From Candidatus Methylomicrobium oryzae (GTDB lineage Bacteria > Pseudomonadota > Gammaproteobacteria > Methylococcales > Methylomonadaceae), in assembly GCF_016745425.1 (NCBI RefSeq), contig NZ_JAERVK010000001.1, forward strand, positions 186,001-250,000: a DNA stretch of 64,000 nt, written 5' to 3'. Positions 29,264-40,941 of the stretch are shown here, piece after piece (the stretch's first letter is position 1; every line of letters begins with the position of its first letter). The position numbers were made by a program, and so were the translations under genes. The notes beneath the pieces are model-generated. The model was not told the DNA's origin and did no database searches. It worked only from the letters and a program-made list of their open reading frames with translations.

Positions 29264-29281
29264 TTGGCATGCATCATGCTT
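29264..29281 (+). promoter_or_regulatory. Sigma-54 promoter for the nitrate transporter unit
   Basis: TTGGCATGCATCATGCTT has the invariant GG (29266-29267), ten bases, then GC (29278-29279), the strict -24/-12 spacing of sigma-54. Start would be near 29291, 30 bases before the transporter ATG. Nitrate uptake genes are classic sigma-54/NtrC targets. Confidence 0.6.
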
Positions 29282-29320
29282 GTGCAGGGGCACTTCTTCG
29301 ATTTCTGCAGAGAATTCATC

Positions 29321-30799
29321 ATGGCGAACCCAAACTTTAATCTATTGTCCTTTTCGGGAAGAATGAAGATTCTTCATATGACCTGGCTGGCGTTTTTCAT
29401 CAGCTTCGTGGTCTGGTTCAATCATGCGCCGCTGATGCTGGCGATCGGCAAGACGCTGAATCTGACCGACTCCCAGATCAAGACGATTCTGATCCTGAAC
29501 GTCGCTTTGACGATTCCGGCGCGTATCGCGATCGGGATCCTGGTCGACAAGTTCGGGCCCAAGCGTACTTATTCGATTTTGCTGGGGCTGGGCAGCATTC
29601 CGTGCTTTATGTTCGCGTTCGCGGAGAGCTTTGAGCAGCTGGCGCTGGCCCGCTTTCTGTTAGGCTTCATCGGTGCAGGCTTCGTGATCGGGATCCGGAT
29701 GGTCGGCGAATGGTTTCCGGCCCGGCAGATCGGCATTGCCGAGGGCGTGTACGGCGGTTGGGGCAACTTCGGTTCGGCGGCGGCTTCGGGGTCGCTGCCG
29801 GTGATCGCTCTGCTGTTCGGCGGCGACGAAGGCTGGCGCTATGCGGTTGCCAGCACCGGTATGATCGCGCTGGTGTATGCCTTCATTTATTATTTCAGCG
29901 TCTCCGACACGCCGAAAGGCTCCACTTATTTTAAGCCGAAAAAATCCGGTGCGATGGAAGTGACTAGCGTCGGCGACCTGATTTTTTATATCGTGATGAC
30001 GGTTCCGTTGTATGCGGCCTTGTCGCTGCTGACCTGGAAGCTGTCGCCGGCCGGCGTGAACATGCTGCCCGGAACCATCGCCTATGCCACTCATGCGTTC
30101 ATCTGGGTTCTATTCTTATATAACGTTTATAAGATTTTTCAGGTAAACAAGGATCACGTGTTCGAACCGATCGAGGAAATCCACCGCTACAAGTTCAAGC
30201 AGGTTGCGATCCTGAACCTCTCTTATCTGATCACGTTCGGTTCCGAACTGGCGGTCGTGTCGATGCTGCCGCTGTTCTTCTTCAATACCTTTCACGAAAC
30301 GCAGGGGGTCACGATGGTGCAGGCGGGCCTTCTGGGGGGCAGTTTCGCATTTATGAACATGGTCGCGCGGCCGGGCGGCGGCTGGTTCAGCGACCGTTTC
30401 GGGCGTAAACTGTCGTTGACGATCGTGGCTTTGGGCGTTTTGATCGGCTTCTTGTGCATGTCGCAAATCAATTCGAGCTGGCCGGTGTCGGTGGCGGTGG
30501 GCGTAACGCTGGCCTGTTCCTTTTTCGTGCAGGCCGGTTGCGGCGCAGTCTTCGCGATGGTGCCGCTGATTAAACGGCGGATGACCGGCCAGATTGCCGG
30601 GATGGTCGGTGCCTACGGTAATGTCGGCGGTGTCGTGTTTCTGACCGTGCTGTCGTTCGTGACGCCGGCCGAGTTTTTCCTGGTGATCGGTGCGGTCGCA
30701 TTCTTCGTGCTGATTGCGGTCCAGTTCATCGACGAGCCGAAGGGGCATATGGCCGAGGTGCTGGAAGACGGCACGATCGAGATGATCGAGGTCAATTAA
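29321..30799 (+). CDS. narK: Nitrate/nitrite transporter, NarK/NasA type (major facilitator)
   Basis: This protein imports nitrate for assimilation. It has 492 residues and about twelve membrane helices. Both nitrate signatures are present: GGWGNFGSAAASGS after helix 4-5 and AGCGAVFAMVPLIKRR followed by GMVGAYGNVGGV in helix 11. The MFS loop motif GILVDKFGPKR is present. I chose the ATG of MANPNFNLL; upstream in-frame codons would fall around the predicted sigma-54 transcript start. A large central loop (about 205-300) contains two extra hydrophobic segments. The kinase/phosphatase gene follows 22 bases later. Confidence 0.93.
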   Translation: MANPNFNLLSFSGRMKILHMTWLAFFISFVVWFNHAPLMLAIGKTLNLTDSQIKTILILNVALTIPARIAIGILVDKFGPKRTYSILLGLGSIPCFMFAFAESFEQLALARFLLGFIGAGFVIGIRMVGEWFPARQIGIAEGVYGGWGNFGSAAASGSLPVIALLFGGDEGWRYAVASTGMIALVYAFIYYFSVSDTPKGSTYFKPKKSGAMEVTSVGDLIFYIVMTVPLYAALSLLTWKLSPAGVNMLPGTIAYATHAFIWVLFLYNVYKIFQVNKDHVFEPIEEIHRYKFKQVAILNLSYLITFGSELAVVSMLPLFFFNTFHETQGVTMVQAGLLGGSFAFMNMVARPGGGWFSDRFGRKLSLTIVALGVLIGFLCMSQINSSWPVSVAVGVTLACSFFVQAGCGAVFAMVPLIKRRMTGQIAGMVGAYGNVGGVVFLTVLSFVTPAEFFLVIGAVAFFVLIAVQFIDEPKGHMAEVLEDGTIEMIEVN

Positions 30800-30821: not shown

Positions 30822-32558
30822 ATGCCGGCAAATAGACTCACCGTCAGCGTTGCCTATGCCAGCGATCGGGGCATCAAAGAGGAGAATCAGGATTTTGCTG
30901 GTTCGCTGATTCCCGAAGATCATCAGTTGACTTATAAGGGCATCGCGGCGGCGATTGCGGACGGGATGAGCGGCTGCGATGCGGGCAGGGAGGCGAGCCA
31001 TTGCTGCGTCGCGGCGTTTCTGGACGATTATTACAGCACGCCCGATTCCTGGTCGGTCAAATATGCCGGGCAGAAAATCCTTTCCGCCACCAATTCCTGG
31101 CTGCACAGCCAGGGCCAGCGACGTTTCGATGCGACGCACGGGATGGTCAGCACGCTCAGCGCGATCGTGTTGAAGTCGAACACTGCGCATATTTTTCACG
31201 TCGGCGATTCGCGGATCTACCGACTGCGGGACGGGAATCTGGAGCAATTGACCCGCGATCACCGGGTCTGGGCTGGCAGCGAACGCAACTACCTGAATCG
31301 GGCGATGGGGATCGAGCCGCGCCTGGAAGTCGATTATCAGGCTCTGCCGCTCAAGCGCGGCGATCTGTTTCTGATGACGACCGACGGTGTACACGATTTT
31401 ATCGACGAGAAATCCTTAAAAGAATTGCTGGCGGAGGGCGGCGATTTGACTGCCGTCGCGAACCACATCATCAAGAAGGCCGCGGACAACCGGAGCGACG
31501 ACAACCTGACCTGCCAGTTGCTCCGGATCGAAGGCTTGCCGCTGCTCAGGGAAGACGAGATTTTGCGCGATCGCAGCCAGCGACCCTTTCCGCCGCCTTT
31601 GAAGCTCGGCATGATTCTGGACGGCTACCGGATCGAGGAGGAAATGCACGCGAGCAAGCGCACGCAGATTTACCGCGCTTTCGATACCGAAACCGGCGTC
31701 CGGGTGATCTTGAAAACGCCCTCTGTGCTGTATGAGGACGACACCCATTACATCGAGCATTTCCTGCACGAGGAATGGGCCGGCAAGCGCATCCACAGCG
31801 AGCACGTGGTCAAAACGCTCGGCTCCGACCGCGATAAAAGCTGCCTGTATTATGTGACCGAATTTCTCGAAGGGCCGACCTTGGCCGAATGGATACGGGC
31901 AAATCCGCAGCCCGAGATCAGGGAGGTCAGGAAAATCGTCGAACAGATCGCGCAGGGCCTGCGGGCGTTTCACCGGATGGAAATGCTGCATCAGGACCTG
32001 AAGCCGGAAAACATCATGTTCGACCGGCACGGCACGGTCAAGATCATCGATTTCGGTTCGGTCAAGATCGCCGGCATCGCCGAAATCACTCCGCTCGATC
32101 ACGGCAGTGCCGAAAACCTGCTCGGCACGCTGAACTATACCGCGCCAGAATATCACCTGGGCCTGCGTGGCACGATCAAGTCCGATCTGTTTTCCCTCGG
32201 TGTGATCGCCTACGAAATGATCAACGGCGCGCTGCCGTTCGGCCGGTCGATGCCGGAAAAACCGAACAAAACGAATCTGGATAAGCTCCGCTACGTGCCG
32301 AGCATCCAATGTAATCCGATGGTGCCGCTCTGGATCGACGGCGCGCTGAAAAAAGCGACGGCGATACGGCACGAATTCCGCTACGACGATCTTTCCGAAT
32401 TTCTTTACGACCTTTCCACCCCGAACCCGAATTTTCTGACCGCCGAGGAAGCCCTGCCGCTGATGCAGCGAAATCCTTTGCTGGCCTGGAAAACGCTGGC
32501 TATCGTTTTGCTTGTCACCAACTTGGTGACCTTGTATTCCCTGCTGAAGGCGCACTGA
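30822..32558 (+). CDS. Fused PP2C-type phosphatase and serine/threonine kinase with membrane tail
   Basis: The protein has 578 residues. The PP2C domain (about 1-235) shows EENQD, ADGMSG, GDSRIYRL, TTDGVHDF and DDNLTC, all metal-binding motifs. A Hanks-type kinase domain follows (about 270-530) with the ATP Lys in RVILKT, the catalytic loop HQDLKPEN (HRD changed to HQD) and DFG in IDFGSVK. A single C-terminal membrane helix spans about 552-572. Similar fused proteins sit between nitrate transporter and nirB genes in Pseudomonas. The position implies control of nitrate uptake or reduction by reversible phosphorylation; the targets are unknown. Confidence 0.92.
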   Translation: MPANRLTVSVAYASDRGIKEENQDFAGSLIPEDHQLTYKGIAAAIADGMSGCDAGREASHCCVAAFLDDYYSTPDSWSVKYAGQKILSATNSWLHSQGQRRFDATHGMVSTLSAIVLKSNTAHIFHVGDSRIYRLRDGNLEQLTRDHRVWAGSERNYLNRAMGIEPRLEVDYQALPLKRGDLFLMTTDGVHDFIDEKSLKELLAEGGDLTAVANHIIKKAADNRSDDNLTCQLLRIEGLPLLREDEILRDRSQRPFPPPLKLGMILDGYRIEEEMHASKRTQIYRAFDTETGVRVILKTPSVLYEDDTHYIEHFLHEEWAGKRIHSEHVVKTLGSDRDKSCLYYVTEFLEGPTLAEWIRANPQPEIREVRKIVEQIAQGLRAFHRMEMLHQDLKPENIMFDRHGTVKIIDFGSVKIAGIAEITPLDHGSAENLLGTLNYTAPEYHLGLRGTIKSDLFSLGVIAYEMINGALPFGRSMPEKPNKTNLDKLRYVPSIQCNPMVPLWIDGALKKATAIRHEFRYDDLSEFLYDLSTPNPNFLTAEEALPLMQRNPLLAWKTLAIVLLVTNLVTLYSLLKAH

Positions 32559-32881: not shown

Positions 32882-32897
32882 TGGCGCGTATTTTGCT
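32882..32897 (+). promoter_or_regulatory. Sigma-54 promoter for the nirB operon
   Basis: TGGCGCGTATTTTGCT matches TGGCACG-N4-TTGC(A/T) with a single change and has GG (32883-32884) and GC (32895-32896) ten bases apart. Transcription would start near 32908, about 32 bases before the nirB ATG. Confidence 0.75.
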
Positions 32898-32939
32898 GAT
32901 TCTTGTTGACTGAGCATTAACCTGTTGATTGAGGGTGCC

Positions 32940-35507
32940 ATGAGTACAAAGCAAACCATCGTCGTGATCGGCAACGGTATGGTAGGGCAGAATTTTCTGG
33001 CCGGCCTGGTTTCCAGCGGCAAGCATACCGATTATGACATCGTAACTTTTTGTGAAGAACCGAGAGCGGCTTACGACCGGGTACACCTTTCTTCGTTCTT
33101 CAGCGGCAAGACGGCCGAAGATTTATCCCTGGTCGAAGAAGGCTTCTTCGAGCGGAGCGGCATTACCCTGCACCTTGGCGATAAAGCCGCGCATATCGAC
33201 CGAGCCGCCAAAACGGTCACTTCCGCGAAAGGGGCCATCATTGACTACGATAAGCTGGTCCTGGCGACCGGTTCCTATCCGTTCGTGCCTCCGGTACCGG
33301 GACACGAGCGTCCTCACTGTTTCGTGTACCGCACGATCGAGGATCTGGAGGCGATCACCGCTTCCGCAAAGGACGGCAAGGTCGGGGTGGTGATCGGCGG
33401 CGGTCTGCTCGGCCTGGAGGCGGCCAAGGCGCTGACCGATCTGGGCCTCGAAACGCATGTGGTCGAGTTTGCGCCGCGGCTGATGGCGGTGCAGTTGGAC
33501 GAGGCCGGTGGCGCGATGCTCCGGCAAAAGATCGAAGCCCTCGGGGTGGCCGTGCATACCGGCAAGAACACCAGCGTGATCAAGGACGGCGACGGTTGCC
33601 GGCACAAGATGTGCTTCGCGGACGGCACCGAGCTCGAAACCGACCTGATTCTGTTCTCGGCCGGCATCCGCCCGCGCGACGAACTGGCGCGTGCCTCGGG
33701 GCTGGAGATGGGGCCGCGCGGCGGCATCGCGATCGACAATCAGTGCAGAACCTCCGATCCGGACATCTATGCGATCGGCGAATGCGCGCTCTGGAACGGG
33801 ATGATCTACGGCCTGGTCGCCCCCGGCTATGCGATGGCGCGGACCGTCGTCGCCGACCTGACCGGCGGCGAAGGCAGCTTCACCGGCGCGGATATGAGCA
33901 CTAAATTGAAGCTGATGGGTGTCGACGTCGCGAGCATTGGCGACGCGCATGCAAAGACGCCGGGGGCGATGGTCTATACCTATCAGAACGGGGCCAGCGA
34001 AGTCTACAAACGGCTCGTGGTCAGCCAGGACAGGAAAAAGCTGCTCGGCGCGGTGCTGGTCGGTGATGCCTCCGGTTACGGCACCCTGCTGCAATACTGC
34101 CTGAACGGAATCGATCTGCCCGAAAATCCGGATGCGCTGATCCTGCCGAGCCGCTCCGACGAATCGGTCGGCCTGGGGCCGGACGCGTTGCCGATGTCCG
34201 CGACGATCTGCTCCTGCTACAACGTGACCAAAGGCGACATCTGCCAGTCGATCGACGGCGGCTGCACCACGATCGCCGGCCTGAAAGCCGAAACCAAGGC
34301 CTCGACCGGCTGCGGCGGCTGCGCGGCGCTGTTGAAATCGGTATTGAACTCGGAGCTGGCCAAGCACGGCTATGAGGTCAACACCGACCTTTGCGAACAC
34401 TTTCCTTATACCCGCCAGGATCTATACAACCTTATTATGGTCAAGCAGATCCGGACTTTCGACGAACTGCTCGAAAAATACGGCAAGGGCCGGGGCTGCG
34501 ACATCTGCAAGCCGGCGGTCGGGTCGATCCTGTCCTCCTACTGGAACGACTACATCTTGAAGAACGAGCATGTCGGCCTGCAGGATACCAACGATACTTT
34601 CCTGGCGAACATGCAGAAAGACGGCACCTATTCGGTCGTGCCGCGCATCACCGGCGGCGAGATCAAGCCGGACATGTTGATCGCGCTGGGTCAGGTCGCC
34701 AAAAATTACCAGCTTTACACTAAGATCACCGGCGGCCAGCGTGTCGATTTATTCGGTGCGCGCGTGGATCAGCTGCCGTCGATCTGGAAGGACCTGATCG
34801 ACGCCGGTTTCGAATCCGGCCATGCCTACGGCAAGTCGCTGCGCACGGTCAAATCCTGTGTCGGCAGTACCTGGTGCCGCTACGGCGTCGACGACAGCGT
34901 CGGCCTCGCGATCGAGCTCGAAAACCGCTACAAGGGGCTGCGTTCGCCGCACAAACTAAAGTTTGCGGTGTCCGGTTGCACCCGCGAATGCGCGGAAGCG
35001 CAAGGCAAGGACGTTGGCGTCATCGCGACCGAAACCGGCTGGAACCTGTACGTCTGCGGCAACGGCGGGATGAAGCCGCGGCATGCCGACCTGTTCGCGA
35101 CCGGGCTCGACAAGGAAACCCTGATCCAGCTGATCGACCGCTTCCTGATCTTTTATGTGCGCACCGCCGACCGCCTGCAGCGGACTTCGGTGTGGATGGA
35201 AAACATGGAGGGCGGCCTCGACTATCTGAAGTCGGTGATCATCGACGACAGGCTGGGCATCTGCGAACAGCTCGAACAGCAGATGAAGTATGTGATCGAC
35301 ACCTACCAATGCGAGTGGAAGACCACGATCAACGACGAAACCCGCCTGAAGCGCTTCCGCCACTTCATCAACAGCGACGCGCAGGACGATAACGTGCTGT
35401 TCGTCGAAGAGCGCGGCCAGTTCCGGCCGGCGCTCGAGAACGAACGCAAGCATTTCAAATTGAATGTAGAAACCGAAAAAGAAACCGTAACGGGAGAGGT
35501 GGAATGA
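32940..35507 (+). CDS. nirB: Assimilatory nitrite reductase (NAD(P)H), large subunit
   Basis: This enzyme reduces nitrite to ammonia in the cytoplasm using NAD(P)H, FAD, iron-sulfur and sirohaem. It has 855 residues. FAD/NAD-binding Rossmann motifs are IGNGMVGQNFL (start) and VIGGGLLGLEAAKAL (about 145-160). A BFD-like [2Fe-2S] site is CSCYNV...GCGGC (about 424-460). The sirohaem/[4Fe-4S] cysteines are in CVGSTWC (near 640) and GCTRECAEA (near 680). The ATG with GAGGG upstream is preferred over a codon 15 bases earlier. It overlaps nirD by four bases. Confidence 0.97.
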   Translation: MSTKQTIVVIGNGMVGQNFLAGLVSSGKHTDYDIVTFCEEPRAAYDRVHLSSFFSGKTAEDLSLVEEGFFERSGITLHLGDKAAHIDRAAKTVTSAKGAIIDYDKLVLATGSYPFVPPVPGHERPHCFVYRTIEDLEAITASAKDGKVGVVIGGGLLGLEAAKALTDLGLETHVVEFAPRLMAVQLDEAGGAMLRQKIEALGVAVHTGKNTSVIKDGDGCRHKMCFADGTELETDLILFSAGIRPRDELARASGLEMGPRGGIAIDNQCRTSDPDIYAIGECALWNGMIYGLVAPGYAMARTVVADLTGGEGSFTGADMSTKLKLMGVDVASIGDAHAKTPGAMVYTYQNGASEVYKRLVVSQDRKKLLGAVLVGDASGYGTLLQYCLNGIDLPENPDALILPSRSDESVGLGPDALPMSATICSCYNVTKGDICQSIDGGCTTIAGLKAETKASTGCGGCAALLKSVLNSELAKHGYEVNTDLCEHFPYTRQDLYNLIMVKQIRTFDELLEKYGKGRGCDICKPAVGSILSSYWNDYILKNEHVGLQDTNDTFLANMQKDGTYSVVPRITGGEIKPDMLIALGQVAKNYQLYTKITGGQRVDLFGARVDQLPSIWKDLIDAGFESGHAYGKSLRTVKSCVGSTWCRYGVDDSVGLAIELENRYKGLRSPHKLKFAVSGCTRECAEAQGKDVGVIATETGWNLYVCGNGGMKPRHADLFATGLDKETLIQLIDRFLIFYVRTADRLQRTSVWMENMEGGLDYLKSVIIDDRLGICEQLEQQMKYVIDTYQCEWKTTINDETRLKRFRHFINSDAQDDNVLFVEERGQFRPALENERKHFKLNVETEKETVTGEVE

Positions 35508-35836
35508 CCGAATGGATCGATGTGTGCGGCGCGGACGATCTGCAGCCCGACTCGGGCATTTGCGCACTGGTGGAAGGGCGGCAGGTGGCGATTTTTTACC
35601 TGCCGAAAGAAAAGGCGCTGTTTGCTGTCGGCAACTACGACCCGATCGGCCGGGCGAATGTGCTGTCGCGCGGGATGATCGGCGATCTCAGCGGTCAGCC
35701 GGTGGTTGCCTCGCCCTTGTATAAACAGCATTTCAACCTGGAAACCGGTGTCTGTGTGGAGGATGCGGCGGTATCGGTACCCGTTTATCCCATCCGGATC
35801 GAAAACGGCCGGGTCGAAGTCGGCGTCGGAGGCTAA
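35504..35836 (+). CDS. nirD: Nitrite reductase (NAD(P)H), small subunit
   Basis: This Rieske-fold accessory subunit of NirB has 110 residues. The fold is recognisable (VAIFYLPKEKALFAVGNYDP, RGMIGDLSGQPVVASPLYKQHF), but the Cys/His ligands of a true Rieske cluster are missing, as is normal for NirD. ATGA overlap with nirB implies coupled translation. Confidence 0.95.
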   Translation: MTEWIDVCGADDLQPDSGICALVEGRQVAIFYLPKEKALFAVGNYDPIGRANVLSRGMIGDLSGQPVVASPLYKQHFNLETGVCVEDAAVSVPVYPIRIENGRVEVGVGG

Positions 35837-35839
35837 CGC

Positions 35840-36751
35840 ATGAATTATCAATACTATATTGCCGACGTCTTTACCCGCGAGGTTTTCAACGGTGCGCAAA
35901 TCGCGGTGTTCCCGCACGCGGACGGGCTTGACGACCGGACGATGCAGAAAATCGCCAACGAGTTGAATCTCTGGGAAACCGTATTCGTGTTCCATCCCGG
36001 CGGCGATCTGCGCCGATTGCGGATGTTTTCGCCGAAGGCCGAGGTCGATTTCGCCGGCCATCCGATCATTGCGGCCGCCTACGTGCTGGGCCTGTGCGGG
36101 GACATTACGCTGGACGCGCCGGTCACGCCGGTTGTGTTCGAACAGAATGCGGGGCCGGTCGAGGTGAACATTACCGCCGAAAACGGTAAGCCGGCGTTCG
36201 TGCAGTTCACCAACAAAGTTTCCTCGATCGTCGACCGCTTTGCGCCGAACGACGAGGAACTGGCGTCCGTGCTGTCGATTCCGCAGGCCGATCTCGACCG
36301 CATCAAATATTCGGCGCGATTGGTCGCCTGCGGGATGCCGTATCTGATCGTGCCGGTCTGGAAGTACGAAACGGTGCGCAAGGCGCGCTTCGATTACGCG
36401 GCCTGGAGCCGGTCCGCCGCGCCCCAGACCGCCGCGCAGGAAATCCTGTTGTTCGCACCGAAAACGCCGTATTCCGATTCCGATTTCAACCTGCGCCTGC
36501 TCGGGCCGCACATCGGTCACGACGACGACCCGCCGGTCGGCGCAGCGGTGCCGGCCTTTGCCTCCTATCTGTGCTCGTTCGAACATACGCGCAAAGGCAC
36601 CCATACTTTCGCGGTGGACCGCGGCGATGCGGACTCGCGCCGCAGCCTACTGAACATCGAAATGGATCACAAAGGCAAGGCGCAATTGACCCTCCGGGTC
36701 GGGGGCAGCGCGGCGATATTTGCTCAGGGTACGGTATTTTTACCGGATTGA
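35840..36751 (+). CDS. PhzF-family isomerase-like protein
   Basis: The protein has 303 residues with the two-lobed PhzF/diaminopimelate-epimerase fold. The catalytic Glu is in NLWETVFV (E46), AEVDFAGHPIIAAAYVL is the family signature, and the second-half mirror is DPPVGAAVPAFASYL. The usual GNP near the N-terminus reads NGAQ here. Substrate is unknown; the family includes phenazine and quinone-related isomerases. It starts 3 bases after nirD and precedes the nitrate reductase, so it is inside the nitrate operon, for which no established role of PhzF proteins is known to me. Confidence 0.88.
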   Translation: MNYQYYIADVFTREVFNGAQIAVFPHADGLDDRTMQKIANELNLWETVFVFHPGGDLRRLRMFSPKAEVDFAGHPIIAAAYVLGLCGDITLDAPVTPVVFEQNAGPVEVNITAENGKPAFVQFTNKVSSIVDRFAPNDEELASVLSIPQADLDRIKYSARLVACGMPYLIVPVWKYETVRKARFDYAAWSRSAAPQTAAQEILLFAPKTPYSDSDFNLRLLGPHIGHDDDPPVGAAVPAFASYLCSFEHTRKGTHTFAVDRGDADSRRSLLNIEMDHKGKAQLTLRVGGSAAIFAQGTVFLPD

Positions 36752-36834: not shown

Positions 36835-39030
36835 ATGCTATTTGGACGCAACAAAAAGAATCCGATCAAAATGGTCGACAAGGGTGTCGTCAAATGGACT
36901 TACACGACCTGCGGCTACTGTTCGACCGGCTGTTCGATCGAAGTCGGCAGCAATGCGGAGGGAGCCGCGGTCGCGACGCGCGGCGTCGGCGGTGCGGACG
37001 TGAACCGCGGCAAATTGTGCCTGAAAGGCATTTTCGAATACCAGTTATTCGAGGCCCAAGGCCGGGGCGAACGCCCGTTGGTGCGCAACGCGCCGTTCGA
37101 GCCGTTCCGAAAGGCAAGCTGGGACGATGCGCTGGACAAGATGGCGTCCGAAATCAAGCGCATCCAGGCGGCTTACGGCCGCGATGCGTTTGCGGTCGTC
37201 TCGACCGGGCAGTTGCTGACCGAAGAGTTCTATACGCTCGGCAAGCTCGCGCGCGGGGTGATCGGCAGCAACAATTACGACGGCAACACGACCCTGTGCA
37301 TGGCTTCGGCGGTGTCCGGCTACAAGCGCTCGTTCGGCTCGGACGGCCCGCCCGGCTGCTATGAAGACTTTGAGCATACCCACTGTCTGATTGCCTGGGG
37401 CTCGAATCTGCCCGAACAGCATCCGATCATTTATTGGCGGTTGAAGGAAGCACTCGAAAAACGCAAGTTTCCGCTGATCGTGGTCGACCCGCGCGTGACC
37501 ATGCTGGCGCAGTTCGCGGACATCCACCTGCCGATCACGCCGGGCACCGACGTGGTGCTGCAGAATGCGCTGATCCACGTGATTCTGGCCGAAGGGCTGG
37601 AGGACCGCGCCTACATCGAGGCGAACACGACCGGCATTGAGGATCTCGCGAAAGAGGTCCGAAACTACGACCCGATCACCGCCTCGAAAATCTGTGGGAT
37701 CGACGAGGATACGATCCGGACTGTCGCGCGGTTGTACGCGAAGGCCCCGAGGGCGATGAGCATTTGGACGATGGGGATCAACCAGAGCACGCACGGCTCG
37801 GACGGGGTGGTCGGAATCAATAACCTGAACCTGGTGACCGGCAATATCGGCAAACCGGGTGGCACCAGCCTGTCGATCACCGGGCAATGCAATGCGATGG
37901 GCACGCGCGAATGGTCGTCCTGCTCCGGTTTGCCGGGCTACCGGGTGCTCGAAAAGTCCGAAGAACGCGAGGAAATCGCGAAATTCTGGGGCATCGATCC
38001 GGAATTTTTCCCGAAACAGCGCGGCCTGACCGAAACCGATATCTTCCCCGCGATCGAGACCGGCCAGATCAAGGGGCTGTGGCTGGTCGCAACGAACCCG
38101 ATCACCTCGATGCCGAACACCGCGCGGATTCGGAAGACGCTCGAAAAACTCGAATGCCTGGTCGTGCAGGATTCCTATCAGGACGTCGAAAGCGCGAAAT
38201 ATGCGCACATCTATCTGCCCGCCGCGACCTGGGCCGAGAAGGAAGGCGTCTTCACGAATACCGAGCGCCGGGTCAATCTGACTCGCCAGGTGCGCAAGCC
38301 CTATGCCGATTCGAAATCGGACCTGCAGATTTTCAACGAACTAGCCAAGCGTTTCGAACAGGGGCAAAAGATCAAGTTTCCGGAAAAACCGAGCGAGGTG
38401 TTCGAGGAAATGAAGCAGCTTTCGAAAGGCCGGCTGGTCGATATTTCCGGCATGTCGCACGAGCTGATCGAGGCGCAGCGCGGGATTCAGTGGCCTTATA
38501 CCGAAGCGCACGCGAAACAGGGCATCGCCAAGGGCAATCAGCGGCTTTATACCGAAACCGCCTCCTTCCGCTATAAGGAGGGCAAGGCCAAGCTGATTCC
38601 GCTGCCGTTCGTGAACAACAACGAAGTGCCGGACGAGGAATATCCGTTCTGGCTCAATTCGGGGCGGTTGGTCGAGCATTGGCATACCCGCACGAAGACC
38701 GGCAAGATCGGCAACAATAACAAGTTCAGCCCGATCCCATTCATGGAAATGAATCCGGATGCGGCGGCCGAAATGGGCGTCAAGCACCAGGCCTATGTAA
38801 GAGTCGTCTCGCGCCGCGGCGATGCGGTCGTGATGGCGATGCTGACCCAGCGCGTGCCGCGCAACATGGTGTTCATCCCGTTCCACTTTTTCGACTGCGC
38901 GAACCGCCTGACTTTGGGGCTTCTGGACCCGCATTCGCGCCAGCCCGCCTTCAAGCAGCAGGCGGTCAGGATCGAACACGTCGACCAGGAACTGGCCGCG
39001 CGGATCAATAAAGAAGCGCGCGAATATTAA
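36835..39030 (+). CDS. nasA: Assimilatory-type nitrate reductase catalytic subunit (molybdopterin, [4Fe-4S])
   Basis: The protein has 731 residues of the bis-MGD molybdoenzyme family. Four N-terminal cysteines (C26, C29, C33, C62) bind one [4Fe-4S] cluster. The Mo ligand is probably C155 in TTLCMASAVSGYKRS, Cys as in Nas, Nap and Fdh. There is no Tat signal (it starts MLFGRNKKNPIKM), so the enzyme is cytoplasmic, and no C-terminal BFD [2Fe-2S] domain as in enteric NasA. Nitrate as substrate is inferred mainly from the transporter and nirBD neighbours; a formate dehydrogenase-like activity is the alternative. The fused anchor gene follows 12 bases later. Confidence 0.85.
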   Translation: MLFGRNKKNPIKMVDKGVVKWTYTTCGYCSTGCSIEVGSNAEGAAVATRGVGGADVNRGKLCLKGIFEYQLFEAQGRGERPLVRNAPFEPFRKASWDDALDKMASEIKRIQAAYGRDAFAVVSTGQLLTEEFYTLGKLARGVIGSNNYDGNTTLCMASAVSGYKRSFGSDGPPGCYEDFEHTHCLIAWGSNLPEQHPIIYWRLKEALEKRKFPLIVVDPRVTMLAQFADIHLPITPGTDVVLQNALIHVILAEGLEDRAYIEANTTGIEDLAKEVRNYDPITASKICGIDEDTIRTVARLYAKAPRAMSIWTMGINQSTHGSDGVVGINNLNLVTGNIGKPGGTSLSITGQCNAMGTREWSSCSGLPGYRVLEKSEEREEIAKFWGIDPEFFPKQRGLTETDIFPAIETGQIKGLWLVATNPITSMPNTARIRKTLEKLECLVVQDSYQDVESAKYAHIYLPAATWAEKEGVFTNTERRVNLTRQVRKPYADSKSDLQIFNELAKRFEQGQKIKFPEKPSEVFEEMKQLSKGRLVDISGMSHELIEAQRGIQWPYTEAHAKQGIAKGNQRLYTETASFRYKEGKAKLIPLPFVNNNEVPDEEYPFWLNSGRLVEHWHTRTKTGKIGNNNKFSPIPFMEMNPDAAAEMGVKHQAYVRVVSRRGDAVVMAMLTQRVPRNMVFIPFHFFDCANRLTLGLLDPHSRQPAFKQQAVRIEHVDQELAARINKEAREY

Positions 39031-39042
39031 TCGGGGTTGACT

Positions 39043-40941
39043 ATGTTTGAAGTACGCAACGACGAGCCGAAATACGCATTTCTGAACCCTAAGAACATTT
39101 CGGAAAAAAGCCGCTACGGCCAAAGTATCGAACTGACCGAACCGGGCAGCGCGTTGAGAAACCAAAGCCTGAAGATCAACAACGATGCATCGATCGGCTA
39201 CAACCCGAACCGCTACAAGCAACACGGCTTCTATTTCAACGCGGACAACTGCATCGGCTGCCATGCCTGCGAATCGGCCTGCAGCGAGAAGAACGAGGTG
39301 CCGATCCATTTGGCCTACCGGTCGGTCGGCTTCGTCGAGGGAGGGACTTATCCCGACTACCAGCGCATCAACATCTCGATGGCCTGCAATCATTGCGAGG
39401 ATCCGGTCTGCCTGAAAGGCTGCCCGACGCGCGCCTACACCAAATTCGCCGAATACGGCGCGGTGCTGCAGGACCCGGATATCTGTTTCGGCTGCGGTTA
39501 CTGCACCTGGGTTTGTCCATACAACGCGCCGCAGCTCGATCCGGTCAAAGGCGAGGTCTCCAAATGCAATATGTGCGTCGACCGGCTCGAGGTGAACCTG
39601 AAACCGGCCTGCGTCGCGGCCTGTCTCGGCAACGCGCTCGACTTCGGCGTGATCGAAACGATACCGGAAGGGCGGGTGCAGGCAAAAGCCGAGATTCCGG
39701 GCTTTCCGACCACCGACATCACACATCCGAACATCCGTTTTCAACAAACCCGCACGACGCACCGCGAAATGACGCGGACCGACGCAATGCCGCTGAAGTA
39801 TCACAAGGACGATCGGGAAGGCAAATTCAAGCCGGTCGTCGACCCGAAGCAGGGCAGCGAAAAACACTGGAACCTGCGCCAGCTGCTGACCAGCCACGAA
39901 AGCGCGCACGTGATCTTCACGCTGAGCACGCAGGCAACGGTCGGCGCATTCATGATGCTGACATTGAGCGGCTGGTTCGGGATTGATGCGCTGGCGCCTT
40001 TACAAAACGTCAGTATTAAATTGCCGCTCACGGTTTTGATGGTGCTGATTTCGACGTTCGGCCTGTTCAAACTGAACATGCATCTCGGCAAACCGCACCG
40101 CTTCTACCGCGGCTTCAACAACCTGAGGCTGTCGCCGGTCAGTCGCGAAATCGCCGGCGTATCGCTGTTTTACAGCGGACTTTTGGGGTATGCGGCATTG
40201 TCCTGGTTCGACAACGGTTTGCTGCAGTTTTTCGCGCAGGCGAGCGCTTTGGTTGCGGTTTTGAGCGGTGCGGCCGGGCTCTTTTATATGTACAAACTGT
40301 ATCGGATTCCCGCTCGGCCGTTCTGGAATCATTGGCAGACGGGCTCCTCTTTTGCGGGTTCGATGCTGAGCCTGGGGAGCTTGATGGTTGCTGTCGCCGG
40401 TCTGTTCGCGCTGCCGGAAAGCGCGGCGGCCTTGCCCGTGCTGTTTGCGGCGATGGCGGCCGGCCTGGCGCTCGAAGGCGCGGGACTGGCAGTCCATGCC
40501 CGCGACATGCAGGCGCTGGGCAACGAAGGGGCGGCTTCCCACTATCGACAGGTTACCCTGTACGGCAAGCCGTATCTCCTCAGGAACGTGCTGCTCGGCC
40601 TCAATATGCTGCTGGCCGGCGGGTTAGTCATGACCGGCGCGGCAGGTGCCGCCGGCATCGTCAGCGTCACCGTTTTAACGCTGACGATGCTGACCGCCAG
40701 CGCGCTCGGCCGCTCGCTGTTCTTCGTGCTGGTGATTCCGACCACGATGCCCGGTGCCTTCTTCTGGAAAAACAGCGGCTTTGTCGACCATGCCCGCGCG
40801 ACGGGGCTGGCCGACAAGCCTCAGCATGGCGTGGTTTATGAACGGCATCATGCGTTCGATTTGAAAGCATTGATCCGGACGATTCGGGAAAGCTCGCTCC
40901 GGGATATGTTCGCGCATGTGAAGTGGATTTTCGGAAAATGA
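39043..40941 (+). CDS. Fused DmsB-DmsC electron-transfer and membrane-anchor protein
   Basis: The protein has 632 residues. The first half (about 60-270) is a DmsB/NrfC-type ferredoxin with 16 cysteines in four groups (CIGCHACESAC, CNHCEDPVCLKGC, CFGCGYCTWVC, CNMC...ACVAAC), enough for four [4Fe-4S] clusters. The second half (about 285-632) is a DmsC-type anchor with about eight membrane helices, expected to oxidise quinol. In E. coli DmsB and DmsC are separate proteins. Downstream of a cytoplasmic nitrate reductase it should deliver electrons from the quinone pool. The start ATG at 39043 has GGGG upstream; an in-frame TTG lies two codons before. Confidence 0.9.
   Translation: MFEVRNDEPKYAFLNPKNISEKSRYGQSIELTEPGSALRNQSLKINNDASIGYNPNRYKQHGFYFNADNCIGCHACESACSEKNEVPIHLAYRSVGFVEGGTYPDYQRINISMACNHCEDPVCLKGCPTRAYTKFAEYGAVLQDPDICFGCGYCTWVCPYNAPQLDPVKGEVSKCNMCVDRLEVNLKPACVAACLGNALDFGVIETIPEGRVQAKAEIPGFPTTDITHPNIRFQQTRTTHREMTRTDAMPLKYHKDDREGKFKPVVDPKQGSEKHWNLRQLLTSHESAHVIFTLSTQATVGAFMMLTLSGWFGIDALAPLQNVSIKLPLTVLMVLISTFGLFKLNMHLGKPHRFYRGFNNLRLSPVSREIAGVSLFYSGLLGYAALSWFDNGLLQFFAQASALVAVLSGAAGLFYMYKLYRIPARPFWNHWQTGSSFAGSMLSLGSLMVAVAGLFALPESAAALPVLFAAMAAGLALEGAGLAVHARDMQALGNEGAASHYRQVTLYGKPYLLRNVLLGLNMLLAGGLVMTGAAGAAGIVSVTVLTLTMLTASALGRSLFFVLVIPTTMPGAFFWKNSGFVDHARATGLADKPQHGVVYERHHAFDLKALIRTIRESSLRDMFAHVKWIFGK

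Follow-up and report, generated by a model that had tools for sequence, protein, structure and literature searches.

The locus considered here, located in a 64,000-nucleotide stretch (the window) of contig NZ_JAERVK010000001.1 of Candidatus Methylomicrobium oryzae, raises the question of where a cytoplasmic nitrate reductase obtains its electrons when its gene is directly followed by one coding for a ferredoxin domain fused to a quinol anchor. The catalytic gene, nasX (36835..39030, + strand), and its downstream neighbour, dmsBC (39043..40941, + strand), are proposed to specify the two polypeptides of a membrane-bound ubiquinol:nitrate oxidoreductase serving nitrogen assimilation, a reading to which, judging from sequence, we assign a probability of roughly 0.72. 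The computations covered gene content and synteny, sequence motifs and phylogeny, as well as topology bias and how well the residues of the site are conserved. They partly bear out an earlier, sequence-only reading of this DNA, which had proposed quinol-fed nitrate assimilation on the cytoplasmic side: nitrate reductase ancestry, the operon, strict pairing, the orientation of the anchor and the residues of the quinol site all stand in its favour, whereas the activity, the complex and the quinol dependence, together with the direction of electron flow, nitrate as the substrate and the assimilatory role, are what we infer from them.

According to Pfam, motifs and trees, nasX encodes the catalytic subunit of a cytoplasmic nitrate reductase (731 amino acids) with molybdenum bis-pyranopterin guanine dinucleotide (Mo-bisPGD) and one N-terminal [4Fe-4S] cluster. 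The four N-terminal cysteines (Cys26, Cys29, Cys33 and Cys62), the cysteine ligand of molybdenum (predicted to be Cys155) and the absence of a twin-arginine translocation (Tat) signal, all noted in the sequence-only reading, were confirmed: the NasX sequence contains neither a twin-arginine motif nor a signal sequence, and an in-frame stop codon is present shortly upstream of the start. The top NCBIfam match of NasX is TIGR01591 (Fdh-alpha), with 566 bits against a cut-off of 666, which would suit a formate dehydrogenase supplying the quinone pool. This match is uninformative, though, since the annotated NasA proteins of Erwinia and Rhizobium, as well as the NasA-CysJ protein of the host, likewise have Fdh-alpha as their top match under the cut-off. 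NasX also falls below the NCBIfam cut-offs for NasC/NasA, which the same Erwinia and Rhizobium proteins miss too, and matches TIGR01580 (NarG) only weakly. Motif alignment revealed that Cys155 is directly followed by methionine, as in NasA and NapA, whereas most formate dehydrogenases have Cys/Sec-His at this motif and none has methionine. In addition, TGQCNAMGTRE of NasX corresponds to TGQxNAMGGRE of NasA, and both this motif and the Cys-Met pair are present in every member of the NasX family aligned.

In the maximum-likelihood tree, 26 members of the NasX family form one clade (support 100/100), nested together with NasA and NapA in the nitrate reductase group (support 99/98) and apart from the formate dehydrogenases. 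The grouping was kept after long outgroups had been dropped, and a tree with NasX forced onto the formate dehydrogenases was rejected by the approximately unbiased (AU) test (p-AU 0.021). Clustering of the catalytic protein with formate dehydrogenases, an outcome that the earlier reading had named as speaking against its own proposal, was thus not observed. The lineage of NasX is long-stemmed and separate from those of NasA and NapA, the order among the three not being fixed by the trees. Taken with the motif, the shared Fdh-alpha match of annotated NasA proteins and the nitrate operon described below, the trees rule against the formate dehydrogenase reading, which appears highly improbable, and the computation supports the ancestry of NasX as that of a nitrate reductase. 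The identity of NasX as NapA was rejected as well, given the missing Tat signal and the separate clade formed by NapA.

The second gene of the pair is listed as an open reading frame (ORF) starting with TTG at 39037; ATG at 39043 is the likelier start, giving a protein of 632 amino acids that begins exactly 12 bases past the nasX stop codon. The ferredoxin domain (Fer4 family) and the DmsC domain (PF04976) were found by Pfam on one polypeptide, which contains exactly 16 cysteines, every one of them inside the ferredoxin domain. AlphaFold2 modelling based on 32 family members produced eight long membrane helices (residues 287-312, 323-348, 365-386, 392-420, 431-454, 464-491, 508-531 and 535-568), mostly with predicted local distance difference test (pLDDT) values of 80-94. 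The earlier description of a single downstream polypeptide with 16 ferredoxin cysteines, about eight helices and a 12-base gap therefore holds on all counts. The membrane domain superposes on ActC of alternative complex III (Z 22) and on PsrC (Z 19), in agreement with an NrfD-like fold. However, cytochrome bd subunits align almost as well (Z 18-20) and the fold match alone is thus not specific; it is the Pfam DmsC domain and the quinol-site residues that lead to the assignment of a DmsC-type anchor. Two candidates for similar fusions were discarded: the apparent DmsB-DmsC fusions of Proteus, encountered in a plasmid search, are adjacent separate ORFs of ordinary DmsABC, and a Burkholderia match belongs to a separate SoeABC-like set.

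The loops of the anchor differ markedly in charge. In every one of the 78 sequences examined, lysine and arginine are more numerous in the loops on the side of the ferredoxin domain than in those opposite (means of 12.1 and 1.0, respectively), while DmsC of E. coli has 4 such residues on the corresponding side and 8 on the other. Under the positive-inside rule, this bias predicts that DmsBC has its ferredoxin domain in the cytoplasm and an anchor inverted relative to E. coli DmsC, and this orientation is supported by the computation of loop charge. The equivalents of DmsC His65, Ser82 and Glu87 are H347, S364 and E369 of DmsBC, invariant in 32 sequences. Ser82 of DmsC is the conserved serine of the NrfD family. 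His65 and Glu87 matter for quinol according to mutagenesis cited in PMC8076601, and an inverted anchor, itself a prediction, has been proposed for SoeC in the same paper. As to the kind of quinol, a search of the host genome gave no MenD above the cut-off and no MqnA; hence, ubiquinol is expected and is probably used rather than menaquinol.

The fused protein rarely, if ever, occurs alone. Relatives of DmsBC are encoded by 388 stretches of GTDB species genomes, and the counts of loci given here cover the best 80. In 76 of these, nasX lies directly upstream of dmsBC; in the other four dmsBC starts no more than about 2 kb from a contig end, in one case behind a transposase gene. The check suggested by the sequence-only reading, whether the fused protein always accompanies a Nas-type reductase, has thus come out in its favour, and conservation of the pair at about 76 loci places the fused arrangement beyond chance. 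Among 201 genomes of the order Methylococcales, nasX is present in 37 and dmsBC in 40, and all carriers of nasX have dmsBC. Two of the three additional dmsBC genomes contain contig-edge fragments and the third is an insertion sequence (IS) case, so that dmsBC without nasX was rejected as a real state: the gene is cut off by a contig end or has an IS transposase between it and the contig edge. The pairwise distances of NasX and DmsBC are congruent (r = 0.79, permuted maximum 0.13). These data also bear on the possibility that NasX is fed by ferredoxin, flavodoxin or NAD(P)H, with DmsBC serving as an anchor or linking quinone to another acceptor. Monomeric enzymes of the NarB type, similar in size to NasX, do use ferredoxin (for the donor classes see PMC7816997), but the near-absolute pairing and the congruent divergence argue against such an arrangement, and so does the ferredoxin domain of DmsBC, the best match of which is TIGR02951; domains of this DmsB type dock onto molybdoenzymes. 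A soluble donor is therefore considered improbable. No gene for a NasB-type protein or a ferredoxin was found in the string of genes from narK to dmsBC, although a soluble donor may be encoded elsewhere.

The genes nasX and dmsBC close the operon nirB-nirD-phzF-nasX-dmsBC, which is adjoined by narK and a gene for a phosphatase-kinase fusion. On the + strand, nirB (32925..35507, alternative start ATG 32940; TIGR02374) and nirD (35504..35836; TIGR02378) code for the large and small subunits of NADH nitrite reductase, and narK (29264..30799; TIGR00886), which has been kept close to nasX-dmsBC in many related loci, for a nitrate/nitrite transporter of the major facilitator superfamily, all with scores above the cut-offs. 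Most related loci that are long enough to reveal them contain either nirB (together with nirD and phzF) or narK. Upstream of nirB lies a sigma-54-like promoter, TGGCGCGTATTTTGCT (32882..32897, + strand), with one mismatch to the consensus. Since the whole window does not contain more matches within two mismatches of the consensus than expected by chance, a single site of this kind is weak by itself; in most related loci, however, similar sites occur 25-95 nt upstream of nirB, and no shuffled sequence yielded a site with at most one mismatch.

As a ubiquinol:nitrate oxidoreductase, the NasX-DmsBC pair would oxidise ubiquinol close to the cytoplasmic face, at the DmsC-type site formed by His347, Ser364 and Glu369, and pass the electrons via the four [4Fe-4S] clusters of DmsBC to the [4Fe-4S] cluster and Mo-bisPGD of NasX. 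Nitrate would be turned into nitrite in the cytoplasm, and NirBD would convert the latter to ammonium with NADH. With potentials of about +0.1 V for ubiquinone and about +0.42 V for nitrate/nitrite, the reaction of ubiquinol with nitrate is downhill by roughly 60 kJ/mol. Since quinol oxidation and nitrate reduction would take place on the same side of the membrane, no energy conservation is expected, i.e. the enzyme would be non-electrogenic and build no proton-motive force, which fits assimilation better than respiration. The same complex could also act in respiration or redox overflow, disposing of excess quinol at low oxygen with assimilation as one outlet, given that a quinol-linked reductase empties the quinone pool regardless of the fate of nitrite and that methanotrophs and sulfur oxidisers from oxygen-poor habitats are among the carriers. 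The lineage may indeed be respiratory or bifunctional, yet respiration or overflow as the main role seems unlikely in view of the nirBD-narK operon with its conserved sigma-54-like site and of the same-side quinol and nitrate sites, which, unlike those of NarGHI, conserve no energy.

Several observations weigh against a quinol-fed assimilatory complex. Ser62 of DmsC is not kept in the fused family, where leucine is found instead. The ferredoxin domain of DmsBC was poorly modelled from a shallow alignment, and the AlphaFold model of NasX, built from 24 rows, was too weak for use, leaving the docking to DmsBC unseen. Vertical inheritance accounts for part of the correlation between NasX and DmsBC distances. 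Finally, the host encodes a second reductase, a diflavin NasA-CysJ protein of 1392 amino acids and of the NAD(P)H type (L125:5817-9995, - strand), and the nasX-dmsBC pair hence need not be the sole assimilatory reductase; a saving of NADH through the pair, as proposed in the sequence-only reading, is thus only a possibility.

Compared with characterised systems, NasX resembles NasA, NarB and NasC in its cytoplasmic location, Cys-ligated molybdenum, N-terminal four-Cys cluster, nirBD-narK operon and nitrate reductase motifs, but it represents a separate, long-stemmed lineage, the partner of which is a ferredoxin-anchor fusion and not an NADH or ferredoxin route. DmsBC shares with DmsABC, the DMSO reductase of E. 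coli, the four-cluster B domain, the eight-helix DmsC family and the His65/Ser82/Glu87 residues; here, however, B and C are fused, the catalytic subunit is of another clade and without a Tat signal, and the anchor is predicted to be inverted. SoeABC, a sulfite:quinone oxidoreductase, also combines a molybdoenzyme facing the cytoplasm with a DmsC/NrfD-like anchor for which inversion has been proposed (PMC8076601), although SoeA, represented in our tree by the SoeA-like protein of Azospirillum, lies far outside the nitrate reductases, the Azospirillum set has separate B and C subunits, and the electron direction is opposite. NarGHI likewise performs quinol-linked nitrate reduction in the cytoplasm and can serve assimilation, as in M. 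tuberculosis (PMC7816997), which makes it the nearest, albeit partial, functional precedent; the NarG clade does not include NasX, and the anchor NarI, a haem-b protein, has an energy-conserving loop.

Bacterial assimilatory nitrate reductases have been divided into two donor classes, NADH and flavodoxin/ferredoxin (PMC7816997), an account that the NasX-DmsBC family would contradict if the proposed biochemistry is true. At the level of sequence, the family contradicts the statement that no member of the clade of Nas, Nap and cytoplasmic formate dehydrogenases has four-cluster and membrane-anchor subunits (PMC7331816). No published description of the nasX-dmsBC pair was found in the literature searched, from which subscription journals were mostly absent. 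We regard it as probable, if somewhat less so than the function of the pair itself, that the family constitutes a third donor class, widespread, quinol-dependent and facing the cytoplasm, the fused DmsB-DmsC anchor of which is inverted, and that such an enzyme is favoured in methanotrophs and sulfur oxidisers, to which quinol comes at a lower cost than NADH. Of the best 80 loci, 31 come from organisms named as methanotrophs, 18 from lineages of sulfur oxidisers (Thiotrichaceae, Leucothrix, a Lamellibrachia symbiont and Halothiobacillaceae) and seven from Cycloclasticus, the rest being other or unspecified Gammaproteobacteria. Methyloglobulus morosus and Methylomonas methanica are among the methanotrophs that have the pair. 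Going by such names, the carriers would be oxidisers of methane, sulfur and hydrocarbons with quinol cheaper than NADH. The methanotroph label of the host is correct, as its genome encodes two copies of particulate methane monooxygenase-type AmoA/PmoA proteins. If the proposed biochemistry holds, the reductant bookkeeping of nitrate assimilation would change for methanotrophs, hydrocarbon-degrading Cycloclasticus and sulfur oxidisers, including the symbionts of tubeworms and mussels.

The spread of the pair is patchy: most of the 201 Methylococcales genomes, one of the same genus included, lack both genes, whereas two genomes from other classes of the phylum contain them. Several loci have been disrupted. 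In one relative (L143:5848-6598, - strand) the fused gene has been disrupted naturally by a transposase gene, which separates its ferredoxin half from its anchor half. The split fused gene of genome G539 turned out to be an IS insertion. Toxin-antitoxin genes or an IS element occur between nasX and dmsBC in some genomes (L065:7616-8990, L043:7611-8990 and L113:7736-8990), pointing to repeated insertion at this junction. The wider gaps do not contain a conserved extra subunit: what lies in them is either toxin-antitoxin genes, an ORF resembling an endonuclease gene or transposase genes.

No NarJ/TorD-type chaperone was found in the host genome, and an Rfam scan of the whole window gave no matches. 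In Thiotrichaceae-type loci (L094:3910-6204, L113:2612-4936 and L121:4759-7068) a nirB-like gene shares only ∼36-38% identity with nirB, and nirD was not found, which suggests a different nitrite reductase. A PhzF-family gene (35840..36751, + strand; TIGR00654 above the cut-off) occupies the interval between nirD and nasX, as it does in most relatives from Methylococcales and Cycloclasticus. The gene for a fusion of a PP2C phosphatase and a Ser/Thr kinase (30822..32558, + strand; Pfam PP2C_2 and Pkinase), which usually adjoins narK, is conserved with the cluster in related loci and is possibly involved in the control of nitrate uptake.

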